A DNA stretch of 64,000 nt from Nocardioides sambongensis (GTDB taxonomy: Bacteria > Actinomycetota > Actinomycetes > Propionibacteriales > Nocardioidaceae), in assembly GCF_006494815.1 (NCBI RefSeq), contig NZ_CP041091.1:682001-746000 (forward strand), written 5' to 3'. Shown here piece after piece: positions 14,176 through 64,000 of the stretch. The notes under the pieces were generated by a model that searched no databases, was not told the DNA's origin, and saw nothing but the letters and a program-made list of their open reading frames with translations. Within the stretch, counting starts at the first letter, position 1, and the number at the start of each line of letters is the position of its first letter. The position numbers and the translations under genes are program-made.

Positions 14176-15684
14176 GTGTCCTCGAACGCACGCAAGGTCC
14201 CGACCGAGGTGCTCGCGCACCCCTCCATCGTCGCCCTCGTCGAGCGAGCTGCCCCCACCGGCAGTGTCACGCCCGAGGACGTGCGTCAGGCGTTCACCGA
14301 CGCTGACGTGGCGCCGGCGCAGCTGAAGCCGCTGATGGCGCACATCGCCGGGCTCGGGATCTCGGTCGCGATGCCGGCCGACACCCGTGCCGTCGCCGCC
14401 TCCTCGCGCACCGCGACCCAGAAGGCCGCGACCAAGAAGCCTGCCGCGAAGAAGGCTCCGGCCGCGAAGCCCGAGCCCGCCGCCGAGGACACCTCGACGC
14501 CGGCGAAGAAGACGGCCGCGAAGAAGGCGCCCGCCAAGAAGGTCGCCGCGAAGCAGGCCGACGCGGCCGTCGTGGAGGCGCCCGCCGTGGAGGCGCCCGT
14601 GGTCGGCCCCGACGGCAAGAAGGTCCTGCCCGACATCCCCGACGACCAGTTCGAGAAGGACGTCGCTGCCGACCCCTCCATCAAGGAGGACGAGAAGGAG
14701 GCCGAGAAGCAGAGCTTCGTGGTCTCCGCGGCGGACGACACCGACGAGCCCGAGCAGCAGGTCATGGTCGCCGGCGCGACCGCCGACCCGGTCAAGGACT
14801 ACCTCAAGCAGATCGGCAAGGTCCCGCTGCTCAACGCCGAGATGGAGGTCGAGCTCGCCAAGCGGATCGAGGCCGGTCTCTTCGCCGAGGAGAAGCTCGC
14901 CAAGGGCGGCAAGATCACCCCGAAGGCCTTCGAGGAGCTCGAGTGGATCGCCGAGGACGGTCGGCGCGCCAAGAACCACCTGCTCGAGGCCAACCTCCGC
15001 CTGGTCGTCTCGCTCGCCAAGCGCTACACCGGCCGCGGCATGCTCTTCCTGGACCTGATCCAGGAAGGCAACCTTGGTCTGATCCGCGCGGTCGAGAAGT
15101 TCGACTACACCAAGGGCTACAAGTTCTCCACCTACGCCACGTGGTGGATCCGCCAGGCGATCACCCGGGCCATGGCCGACCAGGCCCGCACCATCCGGAT
15201 CCCGGTGCACATGGTCGAGGTGATCAACAAGCTCGCCCGGGTCCAGCGGCAGATGCTGCAGGACCTCGGCCGCGAGCCCACTCCGGAGGAGCTCGCCAAG
15301 GAGCTCGACATGACCCCGGAGAAGGTCGTCGAGGTCCAGAAGTACGGTCGCGAGCCGATCTCGCTGCACACCCCGCTGGGCGAGGACGGCGACTCCGAGT
15401 TCGGTGACCTGATCGAGGACTCCGAGGCGATCGTCCCGGCCGACGCGGTCAGCTTCACCCTGCTCCAGGAGCAGCTGCACGCGGTGCTGGACACCCTCTC
15501 CGAGCGTGAGGCGGGCGTGGTCTCGATGCGCTTCGGCCTGACCGACGGCCAGCCGAAGACGCTGGACGAGATCGGCAAGGTCTACGGCGTGACCCGCGAG
15601 CGGATCCGGCAGATCGAGTCCAAGACGATGTCCAAGCTGCGTCACCCCTCGCGCTCGCAGGTCCTGCGCGACTACCTGGACTGA
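14176..15684 (+). CDS. sigA: principal RNA polymerase sigma factor (SigA/HrdB type)
   Basis: 502 aa, group 1 sigma-70 factor for housekeeping promoters. GTG 14176 chosen because GAGAGG (14165-14170) lies five bases upstream. The N-terminus holds a globular segment (residues 1-70), then a long Lys/Ala/Pro-rich linker (about 75-130) and an acidic stretch, as in HrdB-like factors. Conserved core: [16 protein letters not shown] (region 1.2), [15 protein letters not shown] and [20 protein letters not shown] (region 2), [15 protein letters not shown] (2.3-2.4), IRIPVHMVE (3), and the region-4 helix-turn-helix ending [10 protein letters not shown]. The 260-base upstream region carries the phased CCTGAG repeats, so transcription may be regulated. 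Confidence 0.97.
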
Positions 15685-62078: not shown

Positions 62079-63284
62079 TCAGTTCCAGATGGCGTCCGCC
62101 CACTCCGGGTGGTCGATGAACGGGTTGCGGTTGAACTGGAACTCCTCGTAGATCACGTCGTTGCGATGCATCTCGAACGCGCTCGGCGGATCCTCGGCGT
62201 TCCACTCCAGCAACGTGGAGAGCCTGCCGTGGTTGGGCGCGCTCCCGTTGCTCACCCGGTCGTTGACCTCCAGGTCCGCGAAGCCGTCGCCGCCCTCGTA
62301 GCGGACGGACATGTAGAAGATCATCCGTGCCACGTCACCCTTGACGGCGTCGCGCGGCTCCCAGGAGTCCCCGTCGGCGTAGTTGCCGGGAGCCTCGTCG
62401 TTCTCGGTGCCGCCGTCGTCGAAGTCGAGGTTGCCCCGGTCGGAGTTGACGGTGACGTCGGTGGGGCGCAGGTGGTGGATGTCGGTCCCGGGCCCGGTCG
62501 CGGTGCCGAAGTCGCCGTGCGACTTCGCCCAGACGTGCTCGCGGTTCCACTGGTCGACGCCGCCGCCGTTGTCGGACTTCGGCAGGGACCATCCGGTGTA
62601 GAGGGCGATCACGCTCGAGGAGTCGCTCGGGTCCTCGTCGGTCTCCTTCAGTGCCTCCCAGACCTGGGAGTAGGAGAGCCGGGTGACGCCGGTGGAGATG
62701 ATCTCGTGCAGCTCGGTCTCGAGGGCCGCGCCGGTCAGGTCGAGGGCGTCGGCCCAGTAGGTGTCGTCGTAGGCGTCGGTGCCGCCGGTCGCGCCACCGG
62801 GGTCGGTCGGGTCGGTCGGGTCGGTCGGGTCGGTGCTGCCGACGTCGGTGAAGGCGGTGGCCGACTTCAGCCCCGGTCGGGAGAAGTACGCCGTCAGCGC
62901 GCCGGTCACCTCGATCCGTTGTCCCAGCAGGTCGGGGTTGGACGCGAGACCCCAGGACGCCCGGAACGAGCCGGGGATCTGCACGTAGAGCATCTGGGAG
63001 GTGCTCGTGGTGCTCGCGGAGTCCGACAGGGCCAGCGCGTAGTCGTTGGGGAAGTCGTCGGTCACGACGGTGTCGGAGGCGGTCGGCTGGCCGACGACGT
63101 ACCCGGTCACCGTGGCGGTGGAGCCGTCCTGGCCCGACCGTGCCGCGGCGACGGAGATGCCGGCGGCCTGGGCCGGCGACGGCGCGACCAGGGCCGCGCC
63201 GATCAGTGTGAGGAGGAGGACGAGCAGGGCGGAGGAGGTCGCGGCCGCACGGCGGCCTTTCCCGAGAGACATGACGCTCAGCAT
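62079..63284 (-). CDS. secreted endonuclease I (EndA/NucM) with N-terminal OB domain
   Basis: 401 aa. Signal peptide SLGKGRRAAATSSALLVLLL with cleavage near AQA-AG; then an OB-fold-like domain (about 45-140, TVTGYVVGQPTASDTV), a Thr-Asp-Pro repeat linker (DPTDPTDPTDP), and an endonuclease I domain. The catalytic DNase signature is WNREHVWAKSHG with GTDIHHLRPTD and SDRGNLDFDDGG. Extracellular, non-specific nuclease of the beta-beta-alpha-Me type, probably for nutrient scavenging. ATG 63284 used; 63296 and 63272 are alternatives. No immunity gene is visible. Confidence 0.9.
   Translation of the reverse strand: MLSVMSLGKGRRAAATSSALLVLLLTLIGAALVAPSPAQAAGISVAAARSGQDGSTATVTGYVVGQPTASDTVVTDDFPNDYALALSDSASTTSTSQMLYVQIPGSFRASWGLASNPDLLGQRIEVTGALTAYFSRPGLKSATAFTDVGSTDPTDPTDPTDPGGATGGTDAYDDTYWADALDLTGAALETELHEIISTGVTRLSYSQVWEALKETDEDPSDSSSVIALYTGWSLPKSDNGGGVDQWNREHVWAKSHGDFGTATGPGTDIHHLRPTDVTVNSDRGNLDFDDGGTENDEAPGNYADGDSWEPRDAVKGDVARMIFYMSVRYEGGDGFADLEVNDRVSNGSAPNHGRLSTLLEWNAEDPPSAFEMHRNDVIYEEFQFNRNPFIDHPEWADAIWN
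62798..62834. repeat. 9-bp microsatellite coding for the TDP linker
   Basis: About four copies of GGTCGGTCG in tandem, encoding the Asp-Pro-Thr repeat between the two nuclease domains. Copy number may vary by slippage. Confidence 0.7.
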
Positions 63285-63463
63285 CGTCGGCGGCATCGCG
63301 GGCGTAAAGGGTGGACGGGCAGCCGCAACGCAGTGTTCACCGTGTCCGGCCCCCGCCCGGCCCCGGATCGGTCCGATCCCCGTCCGTGACCGCGCGGGGC
63401 GCTCTGACATGCTGGCCCACCACACGCGCGCGCCCGGGATGGCGCTAGGAAGGCACGCAGAGC

Positions 63464-64000
63464 ATGAGCGACATCGCCGGTGAGCTGGCGCGCGTCAAGG
63501 GCGCGTTCGCGCAACCGACCCTGACGCTGCTGCACCAGCGGCAGGCGCCCGTGGTGATCACCGTGTTCCGGGCGGCGTTCGGGCGCAACAACCGGCCGAT
63601 CCCGACCGCGCGGCTGCACACCCAGGTCGAGGAGCACCTCGCCGAGATCCGCCAGTCCGGCGAGCTCGAGGTGCCCAGCGGGAGCGGACGCGACCTGTGT
63701 CAGCGGTGGATGCGCGGCCAGTGGCTGGTCCGGGCGCTGGACGAGACCGGCGACGAGGTCTACTCGCTGACCTCGCACGCACAGCAGGCGCTGGAGCTGG
63801 TGACCGGCATGACCCGGGACCGGGCGACGCTGAGCGAGCACCGGATCGCGACCATCCTGGGCACCGTCCGGCGGTTCAACTCCGAGGCCAACCCCGACCG
63901 CACCGCGCGGGTCACGCTGCTCAACGAGGAGATCGCGCGGCTCCAGACCGAGCGGGACCGGCTCGTCGACGGGGCGGAGCTGGTCAGCGCCACCGAGGAC
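63464..64000 (+). CDS. jetA: DUF3375 protein, JetA of a Wadjet-type SMC system (partial)
   Basis: 179 codons seen; the gene runs off the right edge. ATG 63464 follows AGGAAGG by ten bases. The sequence opens SDIAGELARVKGAFAQPTLTL and continues TLLHQRQAPVVITVFRAAFGR, then CQRWMRGQWLVRALDE, YSLTSHAQQALELV, SEHRIATILGTVRRFNSEA and LLNEEIARLQTERDRL: the order and spacing of conserved blocks in DUF3375. This is the MukF/kleisin-like subunit of Wadjet (JetABCD), which loops and cleaves invading plasmids. JetB, JetC and JetD would follow outside the window. Identification by pattern, no profile search possible. Confidence 0.8.
   Translation, partial: MSDIAGELARVKGAFAQPTLTLLHQRQAPVVITVFRAAFGRNNRPIPTARLHTQVEEHLAEIRQSGELEVPSGSGRDLCQRWMRGQWLVRALDETGDEVYSLTSHAQQALELVTGMTRDRATLSEHRIATILGTVRRFNSEANPDRTARVTLLNEEIARLQTERDRLVDGAELVSATED

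Follow-up and report, generated by a model that had tools for sequence, protein, structure and literature searches.

At the right edge of the window, by which we mean the whole 64,000-nucleotide stretch of the Nocardioides sambongensis genome analyzed here, we detected the beginning of a three-gene operon, jetA-jetB-jetC, that appears to encode the kleisin, KITE and SMC ATPase of a complex derived from type I Wadjet, with the nuclease JetD absent and probably lost. The locus is a Wadjet-type core and not a Wadjet. Judging from sequence comparisons, we think it probable that JetABC is a Wadjet-derived, MksBEF-like auxiliary SMC complex that would move DNA without cutting it.

An ATG frame opens at 63464 on the forward strand and, in the open reading frame reading of the window, runs stop-free for 179 codons to the window's end. 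Sequence comparison showed that the last 6,000 bases of the window are the first 6,000 of genome stretch L003 (G000:C1:740001-760000), on which the frame extends to L003:7020 and gives a product of 518 aa, 179 of these within the window. The preliminary description had taken this unfinished frame, with its DUF3375 signal, for JetA, and the complete protein confirmed it: the full 518-aa JetA matched Pfam DUF3375 (PF11855) at E 1.4e-109, far above chance, over residues 14-494 and profile positions 3-473 of 474, and PADLOC JetA1 at E 2.4e-188. A genome-wide family search located the DUF3375 match at G000:C1:745503-746945. The features at the edge are as follows.

62079..63425, reverse strand: Endonuclease_1 (PF04231, E 5.4e-39) with N-terminal DUF6359 (PF19886, E 9.2e-23), divergent from jetA
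63464..64000, forward strand: jetA, 5' part, 179 codons; kleisin subunit, DUF3375; gene end at G000:C1:747020, 1,020 bp past the window
L003:7017-7811: jetB, start codon chosen by us; KITE; DUF4194 E 8.7e-37, PADLOC JetB1 E 8.5e-123
L003:7808-11326: jetC; SMC ATPase; PADLOC JetC1, E reported as 0
L003:11361-12257, reverse strand: aldo/keto reductase, 35 bp past the end of jetC (11326) and convergent with it

The jetB and jetC genes each overlap the preceding gene by 4 bp, and all three proteins were matched by their families over nearly full length; the Pfam MksE model gave the window's JetB 16.4 bits, below its cut-off of 27 bits. Downstream of jetC, the aldo/keto reductase gene is followed by one for a glutaminase/STAS protein. 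Three partners had been expected just past the edge, and JetB and JetC are indeed there, but JetD is not and the aldo/keto reductase stands instead.

JetD absence was judged by Pfam JetD_C, by a profile made from 11 JetDs of the family and by PADLOC on 98 flanking genes. The Pfam search found no JetD_C match at the window's jetABC locus, where the gene after jetC is the opposite-strand aldo/keto reductase, and a complete canonical Wadjet at the window's edge is ruled out by the lack of JetD. No JetD remnant was found downstream of jetC (best tblastn E 0.049), nor did the JetD profile reveal one outside the JetD-bearing loci (best match E 0.041). Because the operon has no JetD, and the sole JetD_C match of the genome lies at 3.44 Mb while jetABC lies at 0.75 Mb, the anti-plasmid Wadjet locus proposed earlier cannot be claimed. 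The distant match belongs to a second locus, in which another DUF3375 match (G000:C1:3435133) goes with JetA, JetB, JetC and then JetD_C, and the JetC of this locus sits on a branch distant from that of the window's JetC in a quick tree. Its JetD is split: the N-terminal part and the C-terminal part occupy separate frames that overlap, L004:14500-15243 and 14934-15653. The split JetD at L004:14500-15653 is either a broken gene or an assembly error, and no intact JetD was found in the genome as assembled.

The absence of JetD at the window's locus is not local decay. Profile searches of 215 Nocardioides genomes found DUF3375 in 129 and JetD_C in 32. We paired DUF3375 and JetD_C places lying 3-9 kb apart on one strand, which gave a genus count of 143 DUF3375 places in 127 of the 129 genomes after G284 (a fragment) and G280 (three pieces) were left out; the latter genome is 61% complete and its DUF3375 is fragmented. 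JetD adjoined 7 of the 120 loci in the JetA class of the window (340-390 bits) and was absent at 113, an upper bound because contig ends were examined for minus-strand places only (G308 and G229 were flagged). It adjoined all 16 loci of the other main class (at least 400 bits), which serves as the detection control for the window's class, and 6 of 7 lower-scoring DUF3375 loci. The 113 JetD-less loci are in as many genomes, 99 of them without a JetD_C match anywhere and the remaining 14 with some match elsewhere, fragments included.

Beyond the genus, a first family sample of 149 genomes had DUF3375 in 29 and JetD_C in 14. From its 33 DUF3375 places, with the G010 place left out, we took 20-kb stretches, 30 in all, of which two were cut short by a contig end; among 31 loci with JetABC calls, both loci of the window's genome included, 20 were without JetD and 11 with it. 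L044 carries JetD and is absent from every gene-based count, having no gene calls. A phylum-wide sample of 396 genomes had DUF3375 in 17 and JetD_C in 23. Nineteen DUF3375 places in it were over the cut-off, the two loci of the window's genome among them, and when the lists were compared by eye 9 had JetD_C nearby and 10 did not; the G651 genome, source of one of these 10, carries a partial JetD_C match on a separate contig. All ten phylum-sample loci that we retrieved (nine JetD-less and the JetD-bearing G594) had JetA, JetB and JetC, with JetD in G594 only, and they scatter over several tree branches. JetD-less JetABC is not peculiar to Nocardioides, and other actinobacterial branches are also without JetD.

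Relatives were gathered by a scan with four JetCs, from which the best 80 of 350 loci were taken; this set and the genome samples share species, and their counts were never summed. Two loci without a single JetC frame (L096 and L109) were left out of trees and counts, and contig ends leave L053, L065 and L098 undecided for JetD. In the JetC tree of these best 80 of 350, with four rows from the other set, the window's branch held 51 JetD-less, 4 JetD-bearing and 2 undecided rows, and the JetD profile detected JetD there in L070, L078, L080 (in two frames) and L086 (Nocardioides sp. Root240) only. A second branch among the best 80 of 350 is JetD-less in 7 of 7 loci (L112, L116, L119, L120, L121, L122 and L124), from Arachnia, Arthrobacter, Galactobacter and Microbacterium. 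Near outgroups with JetD, in the tree of the best 80 of 350 and the samples, are Aeromicrobium (on a long branch), Modestobacter, Virgisporangium, Kineosporia L097 and G131; those without it are L099 (N. alkalitolerans, its JetC identical to that of L033) and Kineosporia L100. Since most near outgroups carry JetD, these trees, which are quick, without bootstrap, rooted on outgroups of our choosing and subject to long-branch warnings (L106, L105 and L163 included), suggest that JetD was lost within type I Wadjet; the window's clade, embedded as it is among relatives with JetD, appears to have lost it separately.

The few JetD-bearing members of the window's clade have a JetD more divergent than their JetC: L086 and L070 are 57% identical in JetD against 88% in JetC, and dN/dS was 0.50 for JetD and 0.18 for JetC, while the two proteins were on a par in three JetABCD pairs used as controls. 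For the control pair L107-L094 the JetA value was an artifact, the L094 contig beginning inside the operon, and was excluded. Relaxed selection on these JetDs was not upheld, because in the three measured pairs (of L086, L078 and L070) JetD dS was about twice that of JetC, which makes separate acquisition or recombination as good a reading as decay.

The three remaining genes are intact and under purifying selection. The window's JetC has a Walker A motif (GASGVGKS), a signature motif (KSGGESQ) and a Walker B motif (FLDEGF), and of the 20 first-set loci without JetD, counting the window's, 19 have these motifs, some with one-letter variants; the exception is L031, in which a contig end removes the last two. 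In L154-L163 the Walker B pattern matched no row and the signature pattern missed L163, and these loci were excluded from the motif claims. Across six close JetD-less pairs, dN/dS was 0.11-0.25 for JetA, 0.16-0.32 for JetC and 0.24-0.47 for JetB, the ends of which are variable. SMC_prok_B was over its cut-off in all 22 genomes examined, which makes JetABC an extra complex.

All 20 first-set loci without JetD also keep a short motif, [FW]EGDEG, at the N-terminus of JetB. An IFDR motif at the JetB N-terminus contacts JetD elsewhere, according to part of a review (PMC10586767), and by analogy a partner could still dock at the Nocardioides motif, which is likened to IFDR by position. In the JetB of a P. 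aeruginosa plasmid a candidate equivalent, LFDQYR, stands close to the N-terminus, at a greater distance from the fold than the motif in Nocardioides. A few residue changes coincide in the two JetD-less clades (for example JetB W213 and JetC E353, in 3 of 7 second-clade rows); we did not rely on them as a mark of JetD loss, since JetD-bearing members of the window's clade have them too and there was no chance control.

When the genes of 32 loci were clustered (identity of 30% or more over 60% of the length), no conserved alternative fourth gene was found, the largest non-Jet cluster covering 5 of the 32. The gene after jetC lies on the opposite strand at 10 of 19 loci of the first set and, among the best 80 of 350, at 26 of 48 clade loci without detected JetD, the contig-cut L053 included. 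Followers of jetC that were scanned or inspected by eye resembled ordinary enzymes, regulators or transporters, and the JetD-sized followers of L116 and L119 resembled, by eye, hydrophobic transporter proteins. The Endonuclease_1 neighbor is probably secreted, given a hydrophobic N-terminus noted by eye; it had been flagged from the start as a possible coincidence, and it looks like one, for gene clustering found no homolog in the stretches around 19 other JetD-less loci. A functional tie between jetABC and this endonuclease was rejected, as the neighbor is not conserved at the other loci compared.

We also scanned three genes per side at 17 of the 20 JetD-less loci, with L025, L026 and L029 omitted to limit near-copies, no downstream genes at L031 and one 1,876-residue neighbor of L027 above the length limit. 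At a threshold of E 1e-10 the 98 genes beside these loci matched nine PADLOC families (best 1.1e-30), weaker matches including mad3, seen for three genes, and LmuB, at 7.8e-20, whereas the 66 genes beside 11 JetABCD loci matched 101, down to E 3e-267; the contrast is qualitative, because families and not proteins were counted and one protein may match many models. Among 25 of the 101 families were Type III methyltransferase, Type IV restriction, GajA, ThsB and PDC-S39 (E 5e-36 to 3e-267). The commonest 25 of the 141 Pfam families beside JetD-less loci were mostly regulators and metabolic enzymes.

Phage or plasmid carriage was rejected on JetC in both record sets and on the JetD of L022 in phages. 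In 50,697 phage records this JetD had no match and the window's JetC had one, at 27.8% identity over 55%; in 72,556 plasmid records the window's JetC matched 15, all below 60% identity and none of the 15 named Nocardioides. Across 19 JetD-less loci, JetC and RpoB distances gave a Mantel rho of 0.14, with 328 of 2000 permutations as high. The two proteins agree for close groups (G111 with G146; G067, G082, G117, G120 and G143), and RpoB pairs the window's genome, G000, with G006, the JetCs of which do not pair. It is likely, though not proven, that species have exchanged jetABC; some forks of the RpoB tree are open. Because 102 of the 215 genus genomes show no JetD-less locus of the window's class, the loci occupy differing genomic sites in most species, and JetC does not track RpoB, the distribution is accessory-like, unlike that of a core condensin, and this counts against a condensin reading. 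Two JetABCD loci, L037 (G085) and L038 (G013), are near-identical, with JetC 0.9% and RpoB 13.6% different and several neighbors in common; their sequences mark a recent transfer of a complete Wadjet.

Type I Wadjet is JetABCD, known as EptABCD in M. smegmatis and MksBEFG in C. glutamicum. The window's locus resembles it in its JetA, JetB and JetC families (a DUF3375 kleisin, a DUF4194 KITE and an SMC ATPase with intact motifs), in gene order, in overlapping genes and in its mostly JetD-bearing near outgroups, and differs in lacking JetD, as most of its class does, and in having no strong defense-gene matches among the flanking genes scanned. The portion of the review cited above that deals with Wadjet describes JetD, a CAP-Toprim nuclease, as its effector, states that all four Jet subunits are needed in B. 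subtilis, and proposes that P. aeruginosa MksBEF likely derived from Wadjet through JetD loss (PMC10586767). A nuclease-free complex of this kind is thus already known: P. aeruginosa MksBEF is described as working alongside Smc (PMC7485682). The Nocardioides complex is alike in gene content, in that a MukBEF-like kleisin, KITE and SMC occur, MksG/JetD is missing and the cell has Smc as well; it is unlike it in being nested among actinobacterial JetD-bearing JetC rows, so that its loss was probably separate. With no JetD here or in most relatives examined, the task of the motor is probably one for which DNA need not be cut. By analogy with descriptions of JetABC and MksBEF, it would most likely still load on DNA and carry out ATP-driven loop extrusion or bridging; it would not cut DNA, and would act like an MksBEF-type auxiliary condensin beside ordinary Smc, its role most likely being DNA organization instead of plasmid killing.

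Several other readings have to be set against an MksBEF-like complex. Counting against the latter, besides the accessory-like spread, are the JetD-bearing 7 of 120 loci of the class, the weaker PADLOC matches and the retained JetB motif. That motif, together with the second Wadjet locus of the window's genome and the 14 of 113 genomes with some JetD_C match elsewhere, would fit a JetABC that continues to restrict circular DNA because JetD or some other nuclease, encoded elsewhere in the genome, acts in trans; we consider this unlikely, as JetD_C is without a match in 99 of the 113 genomes, the window's genome has its JetD divided between two frames, and no non-Jet cluster exceeds 5 of 32 loci in the locus neighborhoods. 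JetABC might instead handle foreign circular DNA uncut, entrapping, compacting or silencing it as does eukaryotic Smc5/6, which the same review, in its passage on the subject, describes as acting against viral DNA by preventing its expression (PMC10586767). The patchy, apparently horizontal distribution fits such an anti-mobile-DNA role, yet JetD-less loci are not beside strong defense-gene matches, and we rate it as possible but unlikely. A more specific form, in which horizontally exchanged JetABC uses loop extrusion to recognize small circles of DNA and suppresses these by entrapping or silencing them, a Wadjet disarmed of its nuclease but kept, is a doubtful proposal on present sequence evidence; if true, it would be a bacterial counterpart of Smc5/6-type restriction.

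Decay after JetD loss, with the operon on its way out, would account for JetD being absent or broken at many loci, including the two-frame JetDs of L080 and of the window genome's second locus, and for the fragmented DUF3375 of G280. The low dN/dS of JetA and JetC (0.11-0.32 in six pairs), the conserved ATPase motifs and the occurrence of JetD-less loci in as many as 113 of the 215 genomes already disfavor this, and we regard it as very improbable. The least credible reading is that JetD is present and too divergent for the profiles. Absence does rest on the Pfam model, the 11-JetD profile and PADLOC for 98 flanking genes; still, the Pfam model detects JetD at 16 of 16 other-class loci and at 7 of 120 in the same class, the follower is on the opposite strand at about half of the clade and first-set loci counted above, and the followers scanned or read by eye look ordinary.

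Other reported systems bear on how an MksBEF-like JetABC should be placed. C. glutamicum MksBEFG is described as acting on plasmids (PMC10123090, PMC7083940), with no chromosome-folding role found in the part of PMC7083940 that concerns it, and Borrelia MksB, without MksEF, is shown to shape the chromosome (PMC10406323). M. smegmatis, an actinobacterium with Smc and EptC, likewise has a further MukB-like SMC, MSMEG_0370, as outlined in PMC6135046; as a guess, six JetD-less f4-family loci may belong to this type, and unlike the window's clade they form a distant separate branch. A second 'Wadjet' locus of Paenarthrobacter lasiusi is tabulated as JetA, JetB and JetC only (PMC11719660), the same three-gene content in one genome, likened here by description.

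Among the titles and abstracts listed for JetD absence and for Nocardioides with Wadjet, MksB or DUF3375, no report of this clade appeared, and one may exist. Nocardioides offers a step from Wadjet to an MksBEF-type complex between close relatives: the JetCs of L070 and L081, with and without JetD, are 0.08 changes per column apart in a quick tree. Such close JetC pairs, together with more than 100 genomes and a sister class in which all 16 loci have JetD, make a defense-to-condensin transition testable. For annotation, plasmid defense does not follow from JetABC matches by themselves or from a JetA at the edge of a contig. JetD has its own stray occurrence in our searches, G225:C1:2033303-2033824, where JetD_C matches strongly (E 3.8e-53) and DUF3375 has no match in the vicinity, marking a JetD without a type I JetA.
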